Source: Picocystis sp. L7 (lineage: Eukaryota; Chlorophyta; Picocystophyceae; Picocystales; Picocystaceae). From it: DNA of 64,000 nt. How positions within the stretch are numbered: the first letter of the stretch is position 1; each line of letters opens with the position of its first letter. The stretch lies in NCBI GenBank assembly GCA_020975725.1, contig QXJR01000005.1:1-64000 (forward strand), given 5' to 3'. The position numbers and the translations under genes were made by a program. This document shows positions 20,225 to 37,148 of the stretch, one piece after another. The notes beneath the pieces are model-generated. The model saw nothing but the letters and a program-made list of their open reading frames with translations, was not told the DNA's origin and ran no database searches.

Positions 20225-23200
20225 CTACAACGAGAATAGAAAAGTAAGGCACAGTACAACAGCAGTGAGCACTTTGCACTGAAGGCAATGTTCCCACTCG
20301 CTGCTATTTGCTGGGCTCCCTGCATCAACGTTTAGCACAGTGCCTGACGTCACTTGAAAATTAATGGCACACCTCATAGAAGGTGTGTTATAATCAACAA
20401 CTATCGCATCTCCTCTCGCAAAAGCAGTTACACCAGAAATAGGTTGTGAGGTTCCGCTGCTTCCGGTGATCAGAATTTCGTTCCCTGATTGCTCACCAGT
20501 GAGAACATAGCACCTACACTGGCCAATCACTTGTCTCTCTGGCGTTATAGTAGCCTGGCCTGTTTCTACAATCACAGTGTAACCCGCGTTGGATTCAAGG
20601 CACGTCACATCACAACGGTCGGTGAATGCTTGGCAGGTGTCAGAGGTGTGTCGAATTTGGCCCAGGGACGAAGGCATTGATGTTGGGTTAGGGGGCGGGG
20701 AAGGAGGATTTGCTGGGCTCCCTGCATCAACGTTTAGCACAGTGCCTGACGTCACTTGAAAATTAATGGCACACCTCATAGAAGGTGTGTTATAATCAAC
20801 AACTATCGCATCTCCTCTCGCAAAAGCAGTTACACCAGAAATAGGTTGTGAGGTTCCGCTGCTTCCGGTGATCAGAATTTCGTTCCCTGATTGCTCACCA
20901 GTGAGAACATAGCACCTACACTGGCCAATCACTTGTCTCTCTGGCGTTATAGTAGCCTGGCCTGTTTCTACAATCACAGTGTAACCCGCGTTGGATTCAA
21001 GGCACGTCACATCACAACGGTCGGTGAATGCTTGGCAGGTGTCAGAGGTGTGTCGAATTTGGCCCAGGGACGAAGGCATTGATGTTGGGTTAGGGGGCGG
21101 GGAAGGAGGATTTGCTGGGCTCCCTGCATCAACGTTTAGCACAGTGCCTGACGTCACTTGAAAATTAATGGCACACCTCATAGAAGGTGTGTTATAATCA
21201 ACAACTATCGCATCTCCTCTCGCAAAAGCAGTTACACCAGAAATAGGTTGTGAGGTTCCGCTGCTTCCGGTGATCAGAATTTCGTTCCCTGATTGCTCAC
21301 CAGTGAGAACATAGCACCTACACTGGCCAATCACTTGTCTCACTGGCGTTATAGTAGCCCGGCCTGTTTCTACAACCACAGTGTAACCCGCGTTGGATTC
21401 AAGGCAAGTCACATCACAACGGTCGGTGAATGCTTGGCAGGTGTCAGAGGTGTGTCGAATTTGGCCCAGGGACGAAGGCATTGATGTTGGGTTAGGGGGC
21501 GGGGAAGGAGGATTTGCTGGGCTCCCTGCATCAACGTTTAGCACAGTGCCTGACGTCACTTGAAAATTAATGGCACACCTCATAGAAGGTGTGTTATAAT
21601 CAACAACTATCGCATCTCCTCTCGCAAAAGCAGTTACACCAGAAATAGGTTGTGAGGTTCCGCTGCTTCCGGTGATCAGAATTTCGTTCCCTGATTGCTC
21701 ACCAGTGAGAACATAGCACCTACACTGGCCAATCACTTGTCTCACTGGCGTTATAGTAGCCCGGCCTGTTTCTACAACCACAGTGTAACCCGCGTTGGAT
21801 TCAAGGCAAGTCACATCACAACGGTCGGTGAATGCTTGGCAGGTGTCAGAGGTGTGTCGAATTTGGCCCAGGGACGAAGGCATTGATGTTGGGTTAGGGG
21901 GCGGGGAAGGAGGATTTGCTGGGCTCCCTGCATCAACGTTTAGCACAGTGCCTGACGTCACTTGAAAATTAATGGCACACCTCATAGAAGGTGTGTTATA
22001 ATCAACAACTATCGCATCTCCTCTCGCAAAAGCAGTTACACCAGAAATAGGTTGTGAGGTTCCGCTGCTTCCGGTGATCAGAATTTCGTTCCCTGATTGC
22101 TCACCAGTGAGAACATAGCACCTACACTGGCCAATCACTTGTCTCACTGGCGTTATAGTAGCCCGGCCTGTTTCTACAACCACAGTGTAACCCGCGTTGG
22201 ATTCAAGGCACGTCACATCACAACGGTCGGTGAATGCTTGGCAGGTGTCAGAGGTGTGTCGAATTTGGCCCAGGGACGAAGGCATTGATGTTGGGTTAGG
22301 GGGCGGGGAAGGAGGATTTGCTGGGCTCCCTGCATCAACGTTTAGCACAGTGCCTGACGTCACTTGAAAATTAATGGCACACCTCATAGAAGGTGTGTTA
22401 TAATCAACAACTATCGCATCTCCTCTCGCAAAAGCAGTTACACCAGAAATAGGTTGTGAGGTTCCGCTGCTTCCGGTGATCAGAATTTCGTTCCCTGATT
22501 GCTCACCAGTGAGAACATAGCACCTACACTGGCCAATCACTTGTCTCTCTGGCGTTATAGTAGCCTGGCCTGTTTCTACAATCACAGTGTAACCCGCGTT
22601 GGATTCAAGGCACGTCACATCACAACGGTCGGTGAATGCTTGGCAGGTGTCAGAGGTGTGTCGAATTTGGCCCAGGGACGAAGGCATTGATGTTGGGTTA
22701 GGGGGCGGGGAAGGAGGATTTGCTGGGCTCCCTGCATCAACGTTTAGCACAGTGCCTGACGTCACTTGAAAATTAATGGCACACCTCATAGAAGGTGTGT
22801 TATAATCAACAACTATCGCATCTCCTCTCGCAAAAGCAGTTACACCAGAAATAGGTTGTGAGGTTCCGCTGCTTCCGGTGATCAGAATTTCGTTCCCTGA
22901 TTGCTCACCAGTGAGAACATAGCACCTACACTGGCCAATCACTTGTCTCTCTGGCGTTATAGTAGCCTGGCCTGTTTCTACAATCACAGTGTAACCCGCG
23001 TTGGATTCAAGGCACGTCACATCACAACGGTCGGTGAATGCTTGGCAGGTGTCAGAGGTGTGTCGAATTTGGCCCAGGGACGAAGGCATTGATGTTGGGT
23101 TAGGGGGCGGGGAAGGAGGATTTGCTGGGCTCCCTGCATCAACGTTTAGCACAGTGCCTGACGTCACTTGAAAATTAATGGCACACCTCATAGAAGGTGT

Positions 23201-26179
23201 GTTATAATCAACAACTATCGCATCTCCTCTCGCAAAAGCAGTTACACCAGAAATAGGTTGTGAGGTTCCGCTGCTTCCGGTGATCAGAATTTCGTTCCCT
23301 GATTGCTCACCAGTGAGAACATAGCACCTACACTGGCCAATCACTTGTCTCACTGGCGTTATAGTAGCCCGGCCTGTTTCTACAACCACAGTGTAACCCG
23401 CGTTGGATTCAAGGCAAGTCACATCACAACGGTCGGTGAATGCTTGGCAGGTGTCAGAGGTGTGTCGAATTTGGCCCAGGGACGAAGGCATTGATGTTGG
23501 GTTAGGGGGCGGGGAAGGAGGATTTGCTGGGCTCCCTGCATCAACGTTTAGCACAGTGCCTGACGTCACTTGAAAATTAATGGCACACCTCATAGAAGGT
23601 GTGTTATAATCAACAACTATCGCATCTCCTCTCGCAAAAGCAGTTACACCAGAAATAGGTTGTGAGGTTCCGCTGCTTCCGGTGATCAGAATTTCGTTCC
23701 CTGATTGCTCACCAGTGAGAACATAGCACCTACACTGGCCAATCACTTGTCTCACTGGCGTTATAGTAGCCCGGCCTGTTTCTACAACCACAGTGTAACC
23801 CGCGTTGGATTCAAGGCAAGTCACATCACAACGGTCGGTGAATGCTTGGCAGGTGTCAGAGGTGTGTCGAATTTGGCCCAGGGACGAAGGCATTGATGTT
23901 GGGTTAGGGGGCGGGGAAGGAGGATTTGCTGGGCTCCCTGCATCAACGTTTAGCACAGTGCCTGACGTCACTTGAAAATTAATGGCACACCTCATAGAAG
24001 GTGTGTTATAATCAACAACTATCGCATCTCCTCTCGCAAAAGCAGTTACACCAGAAATAGGTTGTGAGGTTCCGCTGCTTCCGGTGATCAGAATTTCGTT
24101 CCCTGATTGCTCACCAGTGAGAACATAGCACCTACACTGGCCAATCACTTGTCTCTCTGGCGTTATAGTAGCCTGGCCTGTTTCTACAATCACAGTGTAA
24201 CCCGCGTTGGATTCAAGGCACGTCACATCACAACGGTCGGTGAATGCTTGGCAGGTGTCAGAGGTGTGTCGAATTTGGCCCAGGGACGAAGGCATTGATG
24301 TTGGGTTAGGGGGCGGGGAAGGAGGATTTGCTGGGCTCCCTGCATCAACGTTTAGCACAGTGCCTGACGTCACTTGAAAATTAATGGCACACCTCATAGA
24401 AGGTGTGTTATAATCAACAACTATCGCATCTCCTCTCGCAAAAGCAGTTACACCAGAAATAGGTTGTGAGGTTCCGCTGCTTCCGGTGATCAGAATTTCG
24501 TTCCCTGATTGCTCACCAGTGAGAACATAGCACCTACACTGGCCAATCACTTGTCTCTCTGGCGTTATAGTAGCCTGGCCTGTTTCTACAATCACAGTGT
24601 AACCCGCGTTGGATTCAAGGCAAGTCACATCACAACGGTCGGTGAATGCTTGGCAGGTGTCAGAGGTGTGTCGAATTTGGCCCAGGGACGAAGGCATTGA
24701 TGTTGGGTTAGGGGGCGGGGAAGGAGGATTTGCTGGGCTCCCTGCATCAACGTTTAGCACAGTGCCTGACGTCACTTGAAAATTAATGGCACACCTCATA
24801 GAAGGTGTGTTATAATCAACAACTATCGCATCTCCTCTCGCAAAAGCAGTTACACCAGAAATAGGTTGTGAGGTTCCGCTGCTTCCGGTGATCAGAATTT
24901 CGTTCCCTGATTGCTCACCAGTGAGAACATAGCACCTACACTGGCCAATCACTTGTCTCACTGGCGTTATAGTAGCCCGGCCTGTTTCTACAACCACAGT
25001 GTAACCCGCGTTGGATTCAAGGCAAGTCACATCACAACGGTCGGTGAATGCTTGGCAGGTGTCAGAGGTGTGTCGAATTTGGCCCAGGGACGAAGGCATT
25101 GATGTTGGGTTAGGGGGCGGGGAAGGAGGATTTGCTGGGCTCCCTGCATCAACGTTTAGCACAGTGCCTGACGTCACTTGAAAATTAATGGCACACCTCA
25201 TAGAAGGTGTGTTATAATCAACAACTATCGCATCTCCTCTCGCAAAAGCAGTTACACCAGAAATAGGTTGTGAGGTTCCGCTGCTTCCGGTGATCAGAAT
25301 TTCGTTCCCTGATTGCTCACCAGTGAGAACATAGCACCTACACTGGCCAATCACTTGTCTCTCTGGCGTTATAGTAGCCTGGCCTGTTTCTACAATCACA
25401 GTGTAACCCGCGTTGGATTCAAGGCACGTCACATCACAACGGTCGGTGAATGCTTGGCAGGTGTCAGAGGTGTGTCGAATTTGGCCCAGGGACGAAGGCA
25501 TTGATGTTGGGTTAGGGGGCGGGGAAGGAGGATTTGCTGGGCTCCCTGCATCAACGTTTAGCACAGTGCCTGACGTCACTTGAAAATTAATGGCACACCT
25601 CATAGAAGGTGTGTTATAATCAACAACTATCGCATCTCCTCTCGCAAAAGCAGTTACACCAGAAATAGGTTGTGAGGTTCCGCTGCTTCCGGTGATCAGA
25701 ATTTCGTTCCCTGATTGCTCACCAGTGAGAACATAGCACCTACACTGGCCAATCACTTGTCTCACTGGCGTTATAGTAGCCCGGCCTGTTTCTACAACCA
25801 CAGTGTAACCCGCGTTGGATTCAAGGCAAGTCACATCACAACGGTCGGTGAATGCTTGGCAGGTGTCAGAGGTGTGTCGAATTTGGCCCAGGGACGACGG
25901 CATTGATGTTGGGTTAGGGGGCGGGGAAGGAGGTGAAGGGGGTACTGGACCTTCGCCACAAGTGCCGATGCTCCCTTGTACACCGTTGCATGTATAAGTT
26001 CCCCGTCCATTTCGCACGATTGACTGAAAGCTGCCACCGCCGCCGCTCAAGCAGTACGTCCTGGCTTCTGCGGCAGTGTTGAAGCATGGTAGGGATGTCT
26101 GCGCACAGATGGCGACTACACACATCGCAAGCAGTACGAGCTTCAACGCCATCGCTGGCACAAACCTCTTTGAAATCAT
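20225..26179 (-). CDS. Secreted, probably GPI-anchored protein with 14 Cys-rich repeats
   Basis: A 1984-residue single-exon gene. Residues 1-27 are a signal peptide (KLVLLAMCVVAICA-Q). A short N-terminal domain has four cysteines (about residues 32-74). Then a proline spacer (PPSPPSPPPNPTSMPSS) leads into 14 tandem 134-residue units. Each unit has six cysteines (DTCQ, DRCD, VTCLE, GQCRC, MRCA) and ends in a PPSPPPNPTS linker like those of hydroxyproline-rich algal wall proteins. The C-terminus (NSSEWEHC, then VLTAVVLCLTFLFSL) is a hydrophobic tail fitting a GPI-attachment signal. Units fall into two types: V (VVVETGRATITPVRQ) and I (VIVETGQATITPERQ). From the N-terminus the order is V I V I I V V I I V V V I I. 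Family unknown; a cell-surface or wall adhesin role is inference. An alternative start at residue 10 would still leave a signal peptide. Confidence 0.9.
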   Translation of the reverse strand: MISKRFVPAMALKLVLLAMCVVAICAQTSLPCFNTAAEARTYCLSGGGGSFQSIVRNGRGTYTCNGVQGSIGTCGEGPVPPSPPSPPPNPTSMPSSLGQIRHTSDTCQAFTDRCDVTCLESNAGYTVVVETGRATITPVRQVIGQCRCYVLTGEQSGNEILITGSSGTSQPISGVTAFARGDAIVVDYNTPSMRCAINFQVTSGTVLNVDAGSPANPPSPPPNPTSMPSSLGQIRHTSDTCQAFTDRCDVTCLESNAGYTVIVETGQATITPERQVIGQCRCYVLTGEQSGNEILITGSSGTSQPISGVTAFARGDAIVVDYNTPSMRCAINFQVTSGTVLNVDAGSPANPPSPPPNPTSMPSSLGQIRHTSDTCQAFTDRCDVTCLESNAGYTVVVETGRATITPVRQVIGQCRCYVLTGEQSGNEILITGSSGTSQPISGVTAFARGDAIVVDYNTPSMRCAINFQVTSGTVLNVDAGSPANPPSPPPNPTSMPSSLGQIRHTSDTCQAFTDRCDVTCLESNAGYTVIVETGQATITPERQVIGQCRCYVLTGEQSGNEILITGSSGTSQPISGVTAFARGDAIVVDYNTPSMRCAINFQVTSGTVLNVDAGSPANPPSPPPNPTSMPSSLGQIRHTSDTCQAFTDRCDVTCLESNAGYTVIVETGQATITPERQVIGQCRCYVLTGEQSGNEILITGSSGTSQPISGVTAFARGDAIVVDYNTPSMRCAINFQVTSGTVLNVDAGSPANPPSPPPNPTSMPSSLGQIRHTSDTCQAFTDRCDVTCLESNAGYTVVVETGRATITPVRQVIGQCRCYVLTGEQSGNEILITGSSGTSQPISGVTAFARGDAIVVDYNTPSMRCAINFQVTSGTVLNVDAGSPANPPSPPPNPTSMPSSLGQIRHTSDTCQAFTDRCDVTCLESNAGYTVVVETGRATITPVRQVIGQCRCYVLTGEQSGNEILITGSSGTSQPISGVTAFARGDAIVVDYNTPSMRCAINFQVTSGTVLNVDAGSPANPPSPPPNPTSMPSSLGQIRHTSDTCQAFTDRCDVTCLESNAGYTVIVETGQATITPERQVIGQCRCYVLTGEQSGNEILITGSSGTSQPISGVTAFARGDAIVVDYNTPSMRCAINFQVTSGTVLNVDAGSPANPPSPPPNPTSMPSSLGQIRHTSDTCQAFTDRCDVTCLESNAGYTVIVETGQATITPERQVIGQCRCYVLTGEQSGNEILITGSSGTSQPISGVTAFARGDAIVVDYNTPSMRCAINFQVTSGTVLNVDAGSPANPPSPPPNPTSMPSSLGQIRHTSDTCQAFTDRCDVTCLESNAGYTVVVETGRATITPVRQVIGQCRCYVLTGEQSGNEILITGSSGTSQPISGVTAFARGDAIVVDYNTPSMRCAINFQVTSGTVLNVDAGSPANPPSPPPNPTSMPSSLGQIRHTSDTCQAFTDRCDVTCLESNAGYTVVVETGRATITPVRQVIGQCRCYVLTGEQSGNEILITGSSGTSQPISGVTAFARGDAIVVDYNTPSMRCAINFQVTSGTVLNVDAGSPANPPSPPPNPTSMPSSLGQIRHTSDTCQAFTDRCDVTCLESNAGYTVVVETGRATITPVRQVIGQCRCYVLTGEQSGNEILITGSSGTSQPISGVTAFARGDAIVVDYNTPSMRCAINFQVTSGTVLNVDAGSPANPPSPPPNPTSMPSSLGQIRHTSDTCQAFTDRCDVTCLESNAGYTVIVETGQATITPERQVIGQCRCYVLTGEQSGNEILITGSSGTSQPISGVTAFARGDAIVVDYNTPSMRCAINFQVTSGTVLNVDAGSPANPPSPPPNPTSMPSSLGQIRHTSDTCQAFTDRCDVTCLESNAGYTVIVETGQATITPERQVIGQCRCYVLTGEQSGNEILITGSSGTSQPISGVTAFARGDAIVVDYNTPSMRCAINFQVTSGTVLNVDAGSPANSSEWEHCLQCKVLTAVVLCLTFLFSL
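20305..25935 (-). repeat. 402-bp tandem array, 14 copies
   Basis: Coding tandem repeat of exactly 402 bp per unit, with no indels between units. Only about five positions vary, giving two main haplotypes (CTCTGG/CCTGG/ATCACA against CACTGG/CCCGG/ACCACA) and a separately segregating A/C site (GGCACGTC or GGCAAGTC). The near identity points to ongoing unequal exchange or gene conversion. Copy number may be under- or overcounted by the assembly. Confidence 0.95.
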
Positions 26180-26504: not shown

Positions 26505-27035
26505 ATTCGGCAAGCCCCCAGAAAAAAGCTTCTGGTCCGTTTCGCCCCGGTCGTAGCGGTCGTATTTTTTCGGGTCGAAATCGAGATTCGGCTTTTCTTC
26601 CCCAAAATCGTCCCGAAAGAGGGGGGTCTCGTCCTCGGCGGGGATTGTAAGATAGCCATCAGTTGATACCGAAAATACGGATCCTGCGATTTGGCGCGAA
26701 AAGGAACCTTGTTGGTTTCCGACCTGGACGATGATCCGATGGATGGCGAAGAGTTCCAACAATTCTGCAAAATTCTGTAATTTGCATCTATCGACGAGGA
26801 AGCAGGACTTCTTCGTCGAGCTATGGCGTTTGAATTGAGTGCGCAATGGGCAGTATCCAGGCGCACCAGCCATTGGCTGTGCGTGACGACAATGTCGAAA
26901 TCACGGAGATGCCAAACGTCGCGCATGAAGGATTGAAGGCGAAGCGGAACAGGTGGAACAAAGCGCAGCAGATTGCGCTCGTGAATCAGATGTATATGGA
27001 CGAATGCTGTCCGATTGGCAAGGGCTCCCATGGAG

Positions 27036-27764
27036 TGTTGCAAAAAGCGTCCGTGAGTTTTGGACACTCACACACGTGCCTTGGAGGAGAGCGTGTGACG
27101 GGAAGGAGCCGGTGCACCGGTCTTGGGCGAGGGTCCTCGCACTCGCGGACAAAGTCCCCTTCTAGCCGGCTCGAGGCGTGGTGCCTAGTGAGGTCGACCT
27201 CCTGGTGGTTGGGCACGCGCGTAGGCCTCAGCAAGTCGTCGAGAGAGGACGGAAGGAGGCGCGCTGGTGGTTGGCAAAGTCAAATTCTATCTCAAAGCAA
27301 AGAGGGACGATAGGTCTACCTCTCTCACCGCCTCTCACTGGCGGTTGGAATTGGAGCAAAGGGGGTGTCTTATCCGCCTTCGTCCTCCTCTAAGTCACAC
27401 CTGACCGTCCATTTTGCTCGCCCCGGGGCGACTGTGAGCTGTCACTTGCTCGACACCGTTCAGCCCCACAGTCCCATCCGCAACCATTGTAGATAGGGGC
27501 GGGGTCGGCTGGTTCCTTTCGGTCTGTCTCGATCAAGGTCTTCGGATCTCCTTACAGGAAGCCCGTTCTGATCGGGGGCGACCGTGCTTCAATGCGACCC
27601 GGGGAAACTGGTTCTGGTTCCGGAACGGTACTGTCGTTGTATTCCAAAGGGATATCAGATCCCTTACTCAATGGGTAGCCCCGATGGTTCGGACCCGTAA
27701 GCCAGGGTCTCGACGGACCCTGGTGGGCCTCGTTCACAGGAGGAGGCACCTGCCCTATGCAACA
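27036..27764 (-). repeat. 3' LTR of the gypsy element
   Basis: 729 bp, preceded by GGAG. Apparently identical to the LTR at 34058. Confidence 0.95.
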
Positions 27765-29761
27765 CTCTCCCGGCTCCCTGGGACGAACCCGGCTATACCT
27801 GAAAGTCATAGATGTATGCTATGGGGTCATACAACATTGATCTGATCTGGTCTGCAAGATAGTAGTCTTTCTTGCCATCTGTCCATAGCACCTCAAAGAG
27901 CCCATTGTCTTCATCTGTCACCAACCCCTGATAATAAGCTGACTTGTCCTGCCCCTCATGGAAAAGCTCCTGCACAACTGCGCCGGTTAGGTCGGTCCGT
28001 TGCGGCTTGCGTGGCCGCTGTCTGGTCTGAAAAGGTAGCTTGGTGAATGGCCAGGTGTTGATCATAATTGGGCTGGGTGACTGCAAGTAGGTAGTTTTCT
28101 TATGCGTCTGAACTGCTTCATAGTTAGCATCTGTGATACCCTGTTCTGGAATACACCCATTGTGTTCTTCCAGTGGTAAAAAGTCATCCAACAAAGCTGC
28201 TGTTTCATCCACCCAGAAGTAGCGTTGCGAAGGATCTGACAGATTGCTTTCCACCCAATAGCGTACTGGCCTCGCTGGGAACGCGGAGAAATCGCGAGCA
28301 GGTAGCGTCGTATGCGGTACAGCTTTGACTCGGTGCGCATAGCATCTGTGTCCGGCAGCGGAGACGCTTGCAGTTGTCGCTCTTCGTCCATCGGAAATAG
28401 CGTGAGGTCTGAATCTGTCTTGTGTTCAAGGCGATCAGCGTGGATTCGTTCTGAAAATGCAGAGCCTGGTGGTAAGTCCAGTTCGTAACAGCCGTTCCTC
28501 AGCGCCCGTTTAATGACATAAGGGCCAACAAAGTATGGGTCCAGCTTATGTTTGTCAGCAGGCCCCTTGAGACCATACTGCACTTCACCTTGTCCCCAGC
28601 TTCAAATGTTATCTTCGGTCGATGCGCGGCAGCGGCAGCCATGCGCTCCGCAGCCTTACGCAAATTGGCCTGGACAGTATCATAGACCGATCGGTGCTGT
28701 TTTAATAAACTGGTTACCCGGCGGTCGAATGTCGTTACGATGTCTGATTGATTAGTGCCCTCTATGCTTGGAATCTGCAAATGCCAGGGCAGTCTGGATG
28801 GACATCCAAATAATAGCTGAAAGGGTGAGAAGTTAGTAGCTGTATGCACCGAATCGTTGTATGCGTGAGCTGCTGCTTGTAAGAACAGATCCCATTGGTG
28901 CTTATCAGAGCATGTTGTTCTCAACGTTTGCAGGAGCGTGCGATGCTGTCGCTCTGCTCCTCCCTGCGATTGAGAATGATATGGAGTGCCAGTAACATGG
29001 CGGACTCCCAAAGCTGCACAGAAAGCTTGAAACAACGATCGGTAGGCGGGCCCGTTGTCGGTATGTATATGAACTGGGGTGTGATACTTGTACACCAGGT
29101 TATCCATTAAGCACTGAGCCTGACGATGCGCACTCCATGTGGAGTGAATCGGTATATAGATAGGGAACTTCGTGAAGCGGTCCACCACTGTCAGGACAGC
29201 ATTATGGCCAAGAGCAGTGAGCGGTAGATTTTCAACCACATCTATCACAACAGTATGGAAAGGATACGGAAAGAACCTGAACTCTGGGCAAAGCTGACTG
29301 TGTCGGGACCGGTTACTGGGCTTCTGCAGTTGGCACACAGGGCAGCGTGCGACGAAGAGTTCGACGTGTCTCTTCAGGTCCTTCCACGTGAAGTGTCTTG
29401 AGGCATCTGCATAAGTTCTCGCTGAACCAAAGTGTCGCTGATCATGAACCATGTGTAGCAGCTCCTGTCTGAGGCTGTTGTCTGCAGGCACCACCAGTAC
29501 TGGCTGTGCATTGTCACTGGTTGTAAAAAGAAGGCTGTCCTTGACAATATGGTCTTCAGTTGGAGAATGAAGAAGTTCCTGGTAGCTGGCATCATTGTCG
29601 GCAGCGATGCGTATACGCTCCAGTAGAGTAGGTGGCTCCCCTTGCGTAGCGCAGAGCATTGAGCGCACCGATCGTGGCGTAGTAATTGACGCGATCGATC
29701 CACACACAGTCCCTGCTGGACTGCGGCATGCTAGCGGTCTAAGCGTCCGTGTGTGAATTTG

Positions 29762-30634
29762 CCAACGCAGCAGCATGTGGGCAATCCATCCAACTGGAAA
29801 TGCATTACCACACATGCACTGCCGGCTCGCATCGCTTACGTTCGCTGCAGCAGTATCACCAGGCTGCATCCCAACCAATCGCTCTCGTTCGTTAACGCTC
29901 AGCGGGCGAAGTTCGCCTCCTTCATCATGGACCCAGGTGGTTTTCGCACGATCGCTGTGCGACCGTGAGCTGGCCATCAAAGTTGGACATTTCAAGCGAG
30001 GTCGATTCAGAGCATCGCGTTGGACGGTTGCACCAGCTTCCAAGCACTCCTGACAGGTAAGAGGTACTGGTCCTGTCGAGAGCTGAGGTTCCTGCAGAGG
30101 GGGTAGTGAGGTCCAGCATAACCTTGTACGAGCCTGCGCCCCATACTGTGACAGGTCCTCAACTACTGGGGATCCAAACCATTCAGCAATCGTGTCCAGG
30201 TGAGATTCCAGGTGAGTAGCAAATGGGGTGCACTCTAATATAAAGTCCGGACTGTTCAAGCGCTTGTGTATATTAGCAACTGCAGTGAACAGCTCTCGTT
30301 GGTCAAACAGTCCTAGGGGAGGTTTGCCTTGGTCTGTGTTCGCTCGCGAAAAGGGCTGGCAGGGTACTCCTGCTATAAGTAAGTGTACCTTGGGGAGTTT
30401 TCGCCGCTGCCCTAATATGGTCACATCATTGCCGTAACGGAATATGTCTTTGCGCGTAAACAGCCCTGGACGGGCGAGTCGTACTTGATTGAACACCCTC
30501 TGTATGACGCTGCGGCAATCTGGGTCCCTTTCGACGGCAATGTAATCGATCGTAATATCTGTGGATGGAGGCAGAGCAATTTCCAAAGCGCGTAGCGTTG
30601 TACCCATACCAGCACACAGATCCAGTATGCAGTA
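29762..30634 (-). other. C5-cytosine methyltransferase domain within gypsy pol
   Basis: About 290 residues inside the same reading frame as RT and integrase, directly after RNase H. Visible motifs: [16 protein letters not shown] (SAM binding); [14 protein letters not shown] with the catalytic Cys of [13 protein letters not shown] (the usual ENV is ECT here, with the key Glu present); VIII, ARTRLCW; a variable region of about 65 residues that would be the target-recognition part; [38 protein letters not shown]. All elements needed for 5-methylcytosine transfer are present in the usual order. Methyltransferases in retrotransposons have been reported in charophytes and dinoflagellates. Activity and sequence preference are not known from sequence. 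Confidence 0.93.
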
Positions 30635-32772
30635 GACTGATCCACTGTCCACCTTAGCCGAATGGCGCGATAAGTAGTCTGCCCCAGTATTTTCTGATCC
30701 TGGTCTATACTCAACAGTGAAGGGGGCAAAGTAGGCTAATTTCTCAATCCATCGCATCTCGCGCGGAGACAGCTGCTCTGTAGACTTGGTGTTGAGGAAA
30801 TGGCTGGCTTTGTTATCCGTAAGTACGCTGAAGTGCTGACCAAACAACAAGTGTCTCCAGTGCTGCAGAGCATACAGGATGGCACAGGTTTCCTTCTCTG
30901 CTAGATGATAATTCTGTTGGGCTTGATTCAGCTTCTTTGACCAATATTCAACTGGGTGCCACTCCCCTTGCTCATCCTGCTGCATCAGAACTGCTCCCAT
31001 GCCGATGTCCGAAGCATCCGTCTCGACTCGGATCGGTCGGTCCTCATCGAAGAGTGCCAGGACAGGTGGGTTCGTGAGTGCTGCAACCAGCTTGTTATAA
31101 GCTTCTTCTTGTGGGCCTTTCCAGTAGGATGTGAACCCATGTTTCATCGATGCCTGGTTCAACTCAGTCAATGGGGCTGTAAGTTCAGCATAATGCGGAA
31201 CGAATCGCATATAGAATTGGCACAGCCCAAGGAAGGCCATATTATCGCGTTGCGACTGCGGTCGTGGGAACTGCTGGATCTTGGTAAGTAGGTGGTTGGT
31301 ACACGCCAACTGTCCATTACGTATCCGAAAGCCTACCCACTCCAGAGTACTTCTGAAAAAGTGACACTTCGATCGTTTCAGCCAGATGTCGGCCTGTTCG
31401 CAAGTAGCGAAGAATTCCTCAAGGTGTTGGAAATGCTGTTCTTTTGTTTCAGAATGCACCAATATGTCATCCATGTACACCTTTAAGTAGAGCAGGTGAC
31501 CAAATATTCTGTTCATCATGCGCTGAAACATCGCAGGCGCGTTGGCAGCACCCATGGGCATGACCTTCCACACATAGGATCCAAAGGGTGTGACCACTGC
31601 AGTTTTATGGATGTCGGCAGGATCCATCCTAACCTGGTGGAACCCATCCAAAGCATCCAGCGAGGAAAAGTATTTCGCACCTCTCAAGTTCTGCAGGTAG
31701 TCATCTATACGGGGCAGCGGATATCTGTCCTTGACAGTAACATTGTTGAGCAGGCGGTAGTCAAACGCGACCCGCCAGCCCCCGTCTTTCTTCGGTACTA
31801 GGATTACTGGGGCTCCCCAGCTGGAGCCAGCACAAAGGTCCATTTTACCGGCATCGACGTATTCGCTGATTAACTCCTTTAGGGCAGCCTGCTGGTGAGG
31901 GGATAGCCGATAATAATTCCTGTACTGCGGGGTCGCATTTTCAGTGAGCTGTATTTTGAAGGCCTCTCCGCTAACACGCTCTGGCGGTAGCTGCGTACGA
32001 GGCTCAAATAAGCCCTTATATCGGTGATTGATCAGTCCGTCCAGCCGGTACTGATCGCTGTGGTCCAGCTCCCATTCATCGCTGACTTTTGTCCGCATGT
32101 GGTCAAGGTCTGCTTCTTCATCGATAATTTCTGGTCTGGGATCCAGAGGCTGTATCATAAGCAATAGACAGCCTGGGTCCTGTACCGCCTTCCGAGCTTC
32201 GCATCTGGGGACGATTAAGTCCAGCTTTCTGGATGCGATGAACTGGTGATCTCCATACACAGTGTGCTTTCTGCCATTACTGTTCTTTAAGACCATTCGG
32301 TGGTTCTGCCAGTCTAGGGCCATCAGGTGTTTGTCACAGAAGGTCCCCCCTAATATGCAATCAAATGTCTCAAGTGGTGCAACTGCGAAGGGTACTTGAC
32401 CACGGAAGCCATCGATCGTAACGGTGGCCTGAATTACTGGGGCTGTATGAACCCGCTGGCCTACGGCTACGGTGAACTGCACGGCATCGCCAGTGTTCTT
32501 CCAGGTCACCCCTGCTGGGTCAGTGGACTGCAGTTCATGAAATAGTTTCTCGCTGATGAATGAGTAGCTTGCTAATGTATCAAGGTAGGCTTGTGTCCTG
32601 ATTTTGTTCGTTTTCTTTCCAAAGTAAGTTTCTGCAGCTAGGAATTCCTGTCTAGGCCTTATATTACTCAATGAGTTCAGGCAGACAGGAGTCCTTTCAT
32701 TGGTAACCGGGGCTGCTGCTGGTTTCGCTCCCGGCTCCGCTCCGGTAACCTGGGTCACCGGGCGGAGTGTAC

Positions 32773-34011
32773 TCAGTTTTTTGGGGCACCCATAACAGAT
32801 GCCATTTTGCATGAGGACTGATCATGGCCGTAACGACGGCAGCGTTGGCACAGCCCGTGCGCAAGGCACATGTTCTTCTCTTCCTGGGACAGCCTGGCTC
32901 CGAGCGGCTTGTTCGATAGCTGAGTTTGCACCTTTATGATAGCACTCTTCTGCCCTTCATCGAGATCGTCGAATCGCTTTCGCTCTCTCCTTGCGGAGCC
33001 GCTGTCCTGATTATCCTTCGATGGCGCCGGCATCGCAGCAGCTACTGGCCTTCGCATCGGTTCCAAACGGGGACGGTGATCGCTGTTGCGACGGGCAGTT
33101 GCGTAGCGATTCTTCCATTGATCATCAGCTGTCTTGGTCTCTTTGCGGGGCTGTTCAGCAGCTTCCTTTTCTAGCTTGAATATGACTGATGCTAAGTTTC
33201 CTGGTTCCATGTCAGGAACTTTATCCACATCAATCAGGTGGTCCAGGTGCTTATACAACGCTCGCTGGAGGTAGGCTGGCAGCCCGTGCTGCAGCCTTGC
33301 TGATATATCATTCTCCGTTAGCGTACGGCATACAGGAGATGTACTTGCGTTGACGACGAATGTCAATTGCACCAGCCGGTTCAGAAACTGTAAAGCATTT
33401 TCGCCCCGGCGCATACGGGTAGTATGAAATTCGCGCCATGCTTCGGGGCCTGGGTCTTGATTCTGGAACGTACGGCGGAGGTAAGCGTACAATTCTTCCA
33501 CTGATTTGAGGGCACCTGGATCGCGCATAATGAGATTCTGCACCATTGATTTTGCTGTGCCTCCCAAAGCTTGACTGATCGCAAGTACCAACTGCTCTTT
33601 CGGACGGTCGAGAGCGTATGCTTGGCACCAACACACAACATCACGATACCAGTAAGTTAAAGCATATGGATTTTCATCAAGCTCCAGTCCAGTAAATTTT
33701 TCAGGCTTCTCCAGGGAGACCTTTTGTATGTTCTTTGAGTCCTGGAGGGCTGTTCCATACAATGTGGTGAGATGAGGAAGTCCCTCTTCCTCGGAGGGCG
33801 CATGCGTCCCTCCTACGGTTGTCACTTGCTGATTTTCTTGGTTCTCATCGGTGATATTTTGTTCTTCGCCATCAGTTGGGTTTGTTTGCAAGGCTTCAAG
33901 CTGACCTTCGAGCTCAGCAATGCGCTCTTGGAGCGTGCTTCGCATGGCTCGTTCTTCTTCCAAGTCCCTACGGAGCGAACCCATTCGAGTTGTGTGCTCC
34001 GGATCTTCCAT
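32773..34011 (-). CDS. gag of the methyltransferase-bearing gypsy
   Basis: 412 residues. N-terminal coiled coil ([20 protein letters not shown]), a retrotransposon gag core (about 90-290; [20 protein letters not shown], then [20 protein letters not shown]) and a C-terminal CCHC-type knuckle ([15 protein letters not shown]). It packages the element RNA into cytoplasmic particles. Closely related to the gag relic at 0.6-1.9 kb. Confidence 0.9.
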
Positions 34012-34057
34012 TTACTTGAACGTACGGCAGTCTTCTCTCAAGTACAAGCTTAGACAG

Positions 34058-34786
34058 TGTTGCAAAAAGCGTCCGTGAGTTTTGGACACTCACACACGTG
34101 CCTTGGAGGAGAGCGTGTGACGGGAAGGAGCCGGTGCACCGGTCTTGGGCGAGGGTCCTCGCACTCGCGGACAAAGTCCCCTTCTAGCCGGCTCGAGGCG
34201 TGGTGCCTAGTGAGGTCGACCTCCTGGTGGTTGGGCACGCGCGTAGGCCTCAGCAAGTCGTCGAGAGAGGACGGAAGGAGGCGCGCTGGTGGTTGGCAAA
34301 GTCAAATTCTATCTCAAAGCAAAGAGGGACGATAGGTCTACCTCTCTCACCGCCTCTCACTGGCGGTTGGAATTGGAGCAAAGGGGGTGTCTTATCCGCC
34401 TTCGTCCTCCTCTAAGTCACACCTGACCGTCCATTTTGCTCGCCCCGGGGCGACTGTGAGCTGTCACTTGCTCGACACCGTTCAGCCCCACAGTCCCATC
34501 CGCAACCATTGTAGATAGGGGCGGGGTCGGCTGGTTCCTTTCGGTCTGTCTCGATCAAGGTCTTCGGATCTCCTTACAGGAAGCCCGTTCTGATCGGGGG
34601 CGACCGTGCTTCAATGCGACCCGGGGAAACTGGTTCTGGTTCCGGAACGGTACTGTCGTTGTATTCCAAAGGGATATCAGATCCCTTACTCAATGGGTAG
34701 CCCCGATGGTTCGGACCCGTAAGCCAGGGTCTCGACGGACCCTGGTGGGCCTCGTTCACAGGAGGAGGCACCTGCCCTATGCAACA
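34058..34786 (-). repeat. 5' LTR of the gypsy element
   Basis: 729 bp, TGTTGC...GCAACA, followed by GGAG. It is the upstream LTR because the element is read on the minus strand. Confidence 0.95.
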
Positions 34787-35755
34787 GGAGCGATCGACGC
34801 GGCCTGGTCGAACTTGCTGGATGGCTTGCGAAGGCATCCAGATGGCCTGTTCGACGACTTCAACCTATGTCAGAGGAGTGTCCAGCGCCAATTGGCTGCT
34901 TTGATGGAGAAGCAGGACAAGCGAAATGCAGAGGCCCAGGTTGCGACCGGTCGAGGGGTGTGTGCAGTGCACACCGACCTCGAACAAGGAGTCCAGCGCC
35001 TGTTGGACTTGTGCGACGGTTTGAAGCAGCAGCTGGCGATTGCGAAGGAGCAGCGGAACGCGAAGCTGGCGCGACTGGACGAGGATGCGAAGGAAGCCCT
35101 GAGGAAGTCCATGGAAACACATGGAAAACGGGCAAGGCGCGCCTCGTCTGATCGCCAGAGCCATGGCAGCGGAGGTCGCTCCAGTATCGCGCAACTGGAA
35201 GCGAGTATGCGCGATACCAACAACCTACTCATGCTCGCTATGGAGGAGCACGTTGAGACGCAAGCGGAAATGGCGTGGATGAAGGCGGACAAATTCTACA
35301 AATTGCATCCGCACGTGGCGCCCGATCCCGGACCAAAGGAAGCTTGGATTGCGAAAGCAGTGGCAGCGCATCGTGCGAAGCTGCACCGTTCGTCGGTGGA
35401 GGACAATCCGACATCAGAGGAGGATGACCTCAACAACGTTGACATAGCAAACGTATGTGACGTCTAACTTGCCTTGCGTAAATTCCTGTTTCCTTTCTTT
35501 TCTTTATCATTCTTTGCCAAATCTCCCTATTGTTCGTTCTCTACGCAAGAATCTACCTCATTCGCATCGGAAGTTTTCGTGCAGGTGCTTGAAATCGTTC
35601 GTGTTCGTCGTGTTTACATTGGGAAGACGCGCGTACATTCTTTTTGGCAGCAATAGTAGAAAATTACTACAAGGCAGGTTGTTGGTTTACGAGCGGAGTC
35701 AGGTGCCATACATGAACATACGGCACCTTCTTCTTCTTCATATTGTCGTTGCTAG

Positions 35756-35945: not shown

Positions 35946-37148
35946 TCAGTGGTCAACTTCAACTGCAATCGTATCTTGTAATTGTGCACCCCCCACCGAG
36001 TACATATTTCTGTACTCCTGCAAAGTAGGAGGTGTTGTGTTGAAGTAACTGTTCGCAACACCGCCGTAACGACACGTATGAAAGTTAGTCAGTAAAGCTG
36101 CTACCCAATCTTCCTTACTAGTTGCACGGGAGTCTGTCATCTTCCTTGTGACGTCCGTTACGAACGGCCACAAATTGCCGATCTTTCCAAAGACCCATTC
36201 AACACATTCCCTGCACTGGGACATGGCGGTAGCGTACTCTTCCATGGCAGGTGTCCTGTTTGATCGTTTCGGTGCACGGAGGAGGACCTCGCTCGGTGGA
36301 TAGGCTGCATCTCCGTACAAGCACACCCGCTGTCCAAGTCGTTCGCAAATAGCACGCAATCGAGGCACAAGCTCAGAATCAACCAGCATTTGCGGATCGT
36401 TCGTACGACCTGCAGATGGTCCAAACCAATCGCCGATCATGAAGTTTGGAAGGACAACGCACTGGTACTTGACCTTGTGCGACTGCTTCCATCCATTGTA
36501 CATGCTCTCCTGTCCCACCACTGGGCGGCAGATGGTGAACATGGTGCCGTCGATGAAGCCCACACAGTGAGCTTCGAGGCAACCGCAGCGCGCCAAGTCA
36601 TCTGCAAACAACGGGAGCTGGGCCTCCCACATTTCCAATCGCATCGCACGTCGCGCGTGTTCGTACACGTGGTCTAGCATCACGTTGTACATCTCCGATA
36701 TTGCCGGCGGAGGCCTATCGAAAATCTGCGCGAGCTCCATGTTGCGCTTACGCCCAGCCAACCGACGAAGGAGGAGGAGGAACGCCTCCTCACCGCCAAA
36801 CTGCCTTCTGCACCGCTACCGCACCACCTCTGGGACCTCCAGCAACCCTCGCAGCTCGGAAATCGCCTCTCGATCGAAGCGGAATCACGACCGCAATTCG
36901 TCGTCTGTAAAGGAGTCCATTGTGCGCCGCGTCGAAGCAAGAGAGCATTGCGGACTCCACCAGCCCATCATTTCTCGCAGCAACGCGTCACACTCCGTCG
37001 CGATGGCGTCAAACGTAGCTGCGAACGCGACACCAAGGCTAGGCGACTGACGCGTCACGACGACGGCCAAGGCGCGCATCCTCGCGATCTCCACCCGCAT
37101 TCGCCTCAGCTGCATGATCTCGAGGATCGTGCCTTTGGGCTGCGGCAT
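35946..37148 (-). pseudogene. PIF/Harbinger DDE transposase (H1), two stop codons
   Basis: 400 codons in one frame, matching the intact H2 transposase (396 residues) from its MPQ start to its end. The C-terminal part is intact: FIDGTMF (first Asp), GRTNDPQM (second Asp) and CVEWVFGKI (Glu). Two in-frame stops lie upstream, TGA at 36885-36887 (before FRFDREAISEL) and TAG at 36816-36818 (before the GGEEAFLLLLRRLAG segment). No frameshift is seen. If translation could restart at the Met near 36761, the product would carry the whole DDE core without the N-terminal DNA-binding part. Confidence 0.85.

Follow-up and report, generated by a model that had tools for sequence, protein, structure and literature searches.

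The window analysed here, a 64,000-nucleotide stretch of Picocystis sp. L7 DNA (contig QXJR01000005.1, positions 1 to 64,000), carries one LTR retrotransposon at 27036-34786 on the minus strand, with the following features:

27032-27035, no strand: target-site duplication GGAG, first copy, by flank comparison
27036-27764, minus strand: 3' LTR, 729 bp, identical to the 5' LTR
27793-28583, minus strand: end of pol, out of frame here; integrase C-terminal (SH3-like) region, then the last stretch YYQGLV..FEVLWTDGKKDYY
28499-32812, minus strand: pol ORF, 1437 aa, shortened by a frame break relative to intact copies
28973-29263, minus strand: integrase core (PF00665)
29315-29482, minus strand: integrase zinc-binding domain (PF17921)
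29762-30649, minus strand: predicted DNMT3-type cytosine-5 methyltransferase domain, 296 aa, pol residues 722-1017, from PF00145, motifs, tree and fold
29789-29809, minus strand: GNAFPVG motif of the DNMT
30119-30136, minus strand: QARTRL motif of the DNMT
30227-30244, minus strand: FILECT motif of the DNMT
30350-30364, minus strand: PCQPF motif of the DNMT
30728-31123, minus strand: RNase H (PF17919/PF17917)
31322-31798, minus strand: reverse transcriptase (RT; PF00078, E 1.9e-36)
32339-32608, minus strand: aspartic protease region (PF13650/PF13975, both below cut-off)
32773-34011, minus strand: gag ORF, 412 aa, overlapping the start of pol in a different frame
34058-34786, minus strand: 5' LTR, 729 bp, identical to the 3' LTR over all 729 bp
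34787-34790, no strand: target-site duplication GGAG, second copy, by flank comparison

Direct LTRs, a short duplication and the order protease-RT-RNase H-integrase make this a Ty3/Gypsy-type element. Its single pol frame reads, in Pfam order, protease (below cut-off), RT, RNase H, C-5 cytosine DNA methylase, integrase zinc-binding domain and integrase core. The preliminary description had claimed a complete DNMT in frame with RT/RNase H and integrase and lying between them; both points are confirmed, with the methylase matching PF00145 above the cut-off (E=3e-8). The gag ORF gave no Pfam match above cut-off and contains near its end a CX2CX4HX4C motif, which we take to be a knuckle.

Joining the flanks with a single GGAG yields a 288-codon ORF without interruption (26846-27035 plus 34791-35467), and the element is therefore a genuine integration at an ordinary site inside an ORF. 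This interrupted ORF may belong to a PIF/Harbinger transposon as its second gene, and an ORF for a DDE_Tnp_4 transposase (35946-36761) lies near it. Also adjoining the element is an ORF of 1984 aa (20225-26179) that comprises 14 repeats at 402-bp spacing with PPSPPP linkers, the repeats being 99-100% identical across the 300 nt compared.

The pol frame of the window copy is lost near 28580, directly past the integrase core, and is broken again further on; owing to these two breaks, about 240 last residues that are present in intact copies stand out of frame. Intact copies have pol-type open frames of 1,660-1,764 codons, and two of them run on to a common pol C-terminus. Either the window copy is a young insertion with a defective pol end, or the breaks are sequencing errors. 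The C-terminal stretch YYQGLV..FEVLWTDGKKDYY looks Tudor/Agenet-like: Agenet was matched weakly in the relative P0018 (E 0.089, below cut-off), and a Pfam search of the window stretch 27796-28254 returned no match.

As the preliminary description had listed them, motifs I (DLCAGMG), IV (PCQ), VI (ECT), VIII (QARTRL), IX and X (GNAFPVG) follow one another in order, all within 29762-30649. The catalytic set of C5-MTases is complete, consisting of the Cys of PCQ, the Glu of motif VI and the Arg of QxR; ENV is replaced by EC(T/V) with retention of the Glu. Among solved C5-MTases, DNMT3 is the best sequence match, and the DNMT3 fold spans the whole catalytic domain. In the phylogenetic tree the element domain joins DNMT3 with a support of 97/90, the sole DNMT3 reference being incomplete and long-branched. 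Comparison with the DNMT families thus identifies a methyltransferase, and by match, fold and tree its catalytic domain is of DNMT3 type. An origin from DNMT1, CMT, DNMT2-like or bacterial enzymes is unsupported by any of these three, and bacterial C5-MTases score lower.

A DNMT stretch was retrieved from 73 loci of the same genome, of which the 70 covering at least 270 residues were aligned and 3 shorter ones dropped. The catalytic Cys, whose absence from the family the preliminary description had named as counter-evidence, is present in 70/70 aligned copies, as is the QxR Arg, and the motif VI Glu in 69/70. The second residue of motif VI is Cys in 70/70, and the third is Thr in 62 copies and Val in 8. 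Among 32 relatives from protein databases (30 from one search, 2 from another), the Glu is found in 32/32 and the catalytic Cys in all 31 that cover its position; their motif VI reads ECT in 27, ECV in 2 and ENV in 3. The suggestion that ECT is a lineage mark therefore holds in the form that EC(T/V) marks the group (29/32 relatives), but it is not special to the window copy. Since the ENV carriers (P0025, P0026 and P0152) are divergent relatives, EC(T/V) may have originated within the group. Domain identity to the window copy drops to 33-37% in one family of the same genome, and even there catalytic Cys, Glu and Arg are nearly invariant.

Substitution ratios (NG86, 2415 pairs, of which 2056 were saturated and 37 fell in no bin; copies and pairs are non-independent) gave a median dN/dS of 0.39 at dS <=0.05 (135 pairs; pooled pN/pS 0.37), 0.22 at dS 0.05-0.2 (53 pairs; 0.30), 0.16 at dS 0.2-0.5 (8 pairs; 0.20), 0.09 at dS 0.5-1 (5 pairs; 0.12), 0.07 at dS 1-1.5 (5 pairs; 0.15) and 0.16 at dS 1.5-3 (116 pairs; 0.40). 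Judged by these ratios, the DNMT domain is shown to be kept under purifying selection.

Searches of the whole genome (G000; 20.5 Mb, 30 contigs), in which all place counts are lower bounds, located at least 132 places with the window DNMT as query, all element-type by sequence and 47-100% identical, and at least 121 with PF00145. Another 30 PF00145 places, outside both the 132 and the set of host genes, raise the total to at least 162 DNMT places; 27 of these 30 adjoin RT or RNase H, which brings the element-type places to 159/162 and leaves three weak PF00145 places (C20:532869, C20:156478 and C5:16547). A single stop-free frame of 1,660 codons or more is present in 55/132 copies, and internal stops occur in 16/132. 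For at least 150 RNase H places, a listed DNMT lies downstream in 119 and none is listed in 31; of 15 inspected among the latter, one (L088) does have a DNMT and the other 14 belong to a single DNMT-less family. Judged by position, a nested insertion seems to lie between the RNase H place C3:797540 and its DNMT. Contigs C3 and C4 make up 11.6% of the assembly, yet hold 70/162 DNMT places, a likeness to the TE-rich outlier chromosomes of Mamiellales.

Genome-wide, 41 related LTR places were listed, the window's two included. Eight LTR pairs were compared out of about 13 evident among them, a choice that leaned to equal-score pairs; 6/8 are identical and the others differ by 3 and 11 mismatches. 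The window family was thus recently active, in agreement with the earlier reading of young LTRs, which in the window copy are identical and flanked by GGAG on both sides. The same DNMT fusion was found in metagenome and EukProt proteins, and the EukProt rows P0005, P0023 and P0027 (labelled Pavlova lutheri, a label that is uncertain) are relatives of these elements. An assembly error or chimera at the join to pol, raised in the preliminary description, is rejected by the many copies with a long open frame, the recurrence of the fusion in other datasets and the clean empty site. A Gypsy-like metagenome protein, P0028 (1504 aa), has its DNMT match, which narrowly misses the cut-off, between protease and RT; this position differs from the RNase H-integrase interval of the window element. 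At its N-terminus it matches a Dam-like domain below cut-off (E 0.0025), with the motif NPPF.

The charophyte and dinoflagellate precedents mentioned earlier were traced to de Mendoza et al. 2018 (PMC5890265), which describes Dnmt3 capture by Klebsormidium Gypsy elements and Symbiodinium DIRS elements. In the charophyte Klebsormidium nitens, KnitGypsy-Dnmt3 is an LTR Gypsy element whose Pol ORF likewise contains a Dnmt3-type domain, under purifying selection and with key residues conserved. Its repeats are DIRS-like according to a figure legend, whereas the window element has plain direct LTRs and a 4-bp duplication; its host is a charophyte and ours, by its CMT gene, a chlorophyte. The two elements were compared by description, and no row named Klebsormidium was among the 30 + 2 protein-database relatives. 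In yeast the KnitGypsy-Dnmt3 domain produced no methylation, a result called inconclusive there. According to the same paper, SymbioDIRS-Dnmt3 also bears a Dnmt3-type domain in Pol beside RT, forms old families and methylates CG in yeast, but as a DIRS element it has a tyrosine recombinase and, unlike the window element, no DDE integrase; SymbioLINE-Dnmt, also of Symbiodinium, is another cytosine DNMT in a retrotransposon, but of an orphan DNMT class and in a LINE ORF1. Our literature searches recognised no report of DNMT-bearing Gypsy elements in chlorophytes.

In an RT-RNase H tree of 59 rows (10 DNMT-less, midpoint root), the DNMT-less family forms one branch (100/100) that pairs with the DNMT-bearing P0018 (93/85, where long branches meet) and then with the window type (97/95). 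Families E, C and divergent rows, all DNMT-bearing, fall outside that grouping. The DNMT tree is compatible with the RT tree, the order of E, C and P0018 being unresolved: C lies outside window type, P0018 and E as in the RT tree (81/84), and neither a union of window type and P0018 (AU p 0.524) nor the alternative with E outside (p 0.491) is rejected. Family C is 38-41% identical to the window element in RT (37-41% over its nine loci) and 44-52% in the DNMT, and because its DNMT identity exceeds its RT identity, a DNMT swap between Gypsy lineages was first suggested; since the DNMT tree fits the RT tree, a single ancestral capture suffices, although a swap may also have taken place. From these trees, the DNMT was probably gained once, before the present families split, and our reading is that one later loss gave the DNMT-less family. 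If the root lay within or next to the DNMT-less branch, absence of the DNMT could be ancestral instead.

At the DNMT's position, the DNMT-less family has a roughly 200-residue segment, and its first 91 columns are colinear with the DNMT profile: hhalign gives probability 17, E 0.0015 and a score of 29.2, which neither 60 column shuffles (maximum 21.5) nor reversal (15.5) reach. PCQ, ECT and QxRxR are absent from the segment, and its structural model (pLDDT 38) is uninformative on the fold. By this profile match it is a possible decayed DNMT remnant. One member, L093 (G000 C3:1008900-1018800), has a gag-pol ORF of 2,552 codons, cut at the locus start, that ends in a Dam-like adenine-methylase domain (PF05869, E 9.8e-12, above cut-off). 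Comparison with a second locus, L124, shows the Dam-coding stretch recurring upstream without mismatch over 737 bp, the extent of the piece compared, and the domain is therefore coded inside the LTRs; the upstream LTR is not part of the L093 locus, so a repeat search confined to L093 found nothing. The genome has 101 listed Dam places, about 20 pairs of which are 8.0-8.2 kb apart. NPP(Y/F) is the catalytic motif. In ten sequences (L093 and L116-L124, two of them LTR ends of one element) its position is occupied by HPPC in nine and HPPY in one, as against NPPF in P0028, which makes activity of this Dam-like domain doubtful. Dam-like adenine methyltransferases are known from DIRS elements (PMC5890265; DIRS1-like MT domain, PMC3266345), which share such a domain with this sister family but are DIRS rather than Gypsy; our searches recognised no report of a Gypsy element, or of an LTR, that contains a Dam-like domain. 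It is conceivable, if improbable, that the group depends on a DNA-methylase module, the sampled lineages keeping DNMT3 in Pol while one DNMT-less family, with a decayed remnant in place, took up an LTR-encoded Dam-like domain as gag-pol C-terminus; one DNA mark would then have been replaced by another in mobile DNA.

Beyond the elements, PF00145 identified four host genes: L031, with two BAH stretches, groups with DNMT1/MET1; L032 is small and, by our label, DNMT2-like; L033 is a CMT with BAH and chromodomain (100% match to one unnamed record; best named relatives Coccomyxa, 44%, and Trebouxia and Myrmecia, 40%), which marks the host as a chlorophyte; and L034 bears a PWWP domain. PWWP-bearing 'ChloroDNMTs' occur in chlorophytes and charophytes (PMC12344493). 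A six-frame search of the genome, blind to introns, recognised no free-standing Dnmt3, the three weak places aside.

The proposal that the DNMT methylates its own copies or the host genome meets mixed CpG evidence. Across the homologous RT-RNase H stretch (6/67 named loci fell out through short coverage or lack of a match), 50 DNMT-bearing copies in five groups have mean CpG o/e values of 0.69, 0.72, 0.75, 0.76 and 0.83 with TG/CA of 1.24-1.33, whereas 11 DNMT-less copies average 0.978 and 0.993. This contrast would fit long 5mC exposure of the DNMT-bearing lineages, but it comes from one DNMT-less lineage, possibly a newcomer, with codon usage uncorrected, and window sequence flanking the element is also depleted (0.75 and 0.86). 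No CpG-specific transition excess was found in 22 LTR sequences (CpG 0.0145, CHG 0.0164, CHH 0.0121, A/T 0.0142). In coding copies CpG and CHG transitions exceed CHH up to about twofold, which codon position can explain.

We propose a model, to which we give even chances, in which the element DNMT marks its own cDNA or fresh insert. An ordinary Gypsy-type LTR lineage would have gained a DNMT3-type de novo domain in Pol between RNase H and integrase and passed it on together with pol. Most likely the DNMT would be released along with RT, RNase H and integrase, or remain joined to them, inside the virus-like particle or pre-integration complex. It may deposit 5-methylcytosine on the double-stranded cDNA of its own element or on the fresh insert, and the copy would thereby enter a methylated genome pre-marked like host DNA. 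Catalysis, a CG target, cDNA or the fresh insert as substrate, a methylated host genome and a benefit to the element are what we infer here. Against the model we count the yeast-silent KnitGypsy-Dnmt3 domain, the flat LTR CpG transitions, the codon-explicable coding excess and a CpG contrast drawn from one DNMT-less family and set among depleted flanks. Further counted are the dN/dS of 0.39 in the closest pairs with pooled pN/pS above the medians (0.30 at dS 0.05-0.2), host DNMT1 and CMT genes that could do any methylation, and a related family that manages without the domain.

Alternatively, the DNMT might methylate integrated copies so that host silencing limits transposition, sparing the host and thereby the element, an option offered in the discussion of PMC5890265. 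The DNMT3 type of the domain and the persistence of several families in a 20.5-Mb genome agree with such self-restraint, but the recent activity of the window family with its identical LTR pairs and the lack of a deamination footprint in LTRs make it unlikely. Similarly doubtful is a role in binding or methylating RNA, or a nucleic-acid-binding or structural function within the polyprotein: the yeast result for KnitGypsy-Dnmt3 (PMC5890265) and the departure of motif VI from ENV would suit it, but the near-invariance of Cys, Glu and Arg down to 33-37% identity argues against it, and by fold and tree the domain sits with DNMT3 rather than with the host's DNMT2-like gene. A chance passenger, or an assembly or annotation artefact, draws on the pol break downstream of the DNMT in the window copy, but is refuted at the sequence level by the 55 of 132 scored copies with one long open frame, a dN/dS well below 1, the recurring fusion in other datasets and the clean empty site, and retains practically no credibility.

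Why a transposon should carry an enzyme that normally silences it is an open question in the discussion of PMC5890265. Previously known from another alga, the association is represented here in a compact genome by at least 162 DNMT places, a number well above one hundred, spread over several old families ranging from 100% to about a third identity, with recently active copies among them. A sister family without the DNMT resides in the same nucleus and constitutes a natural control.
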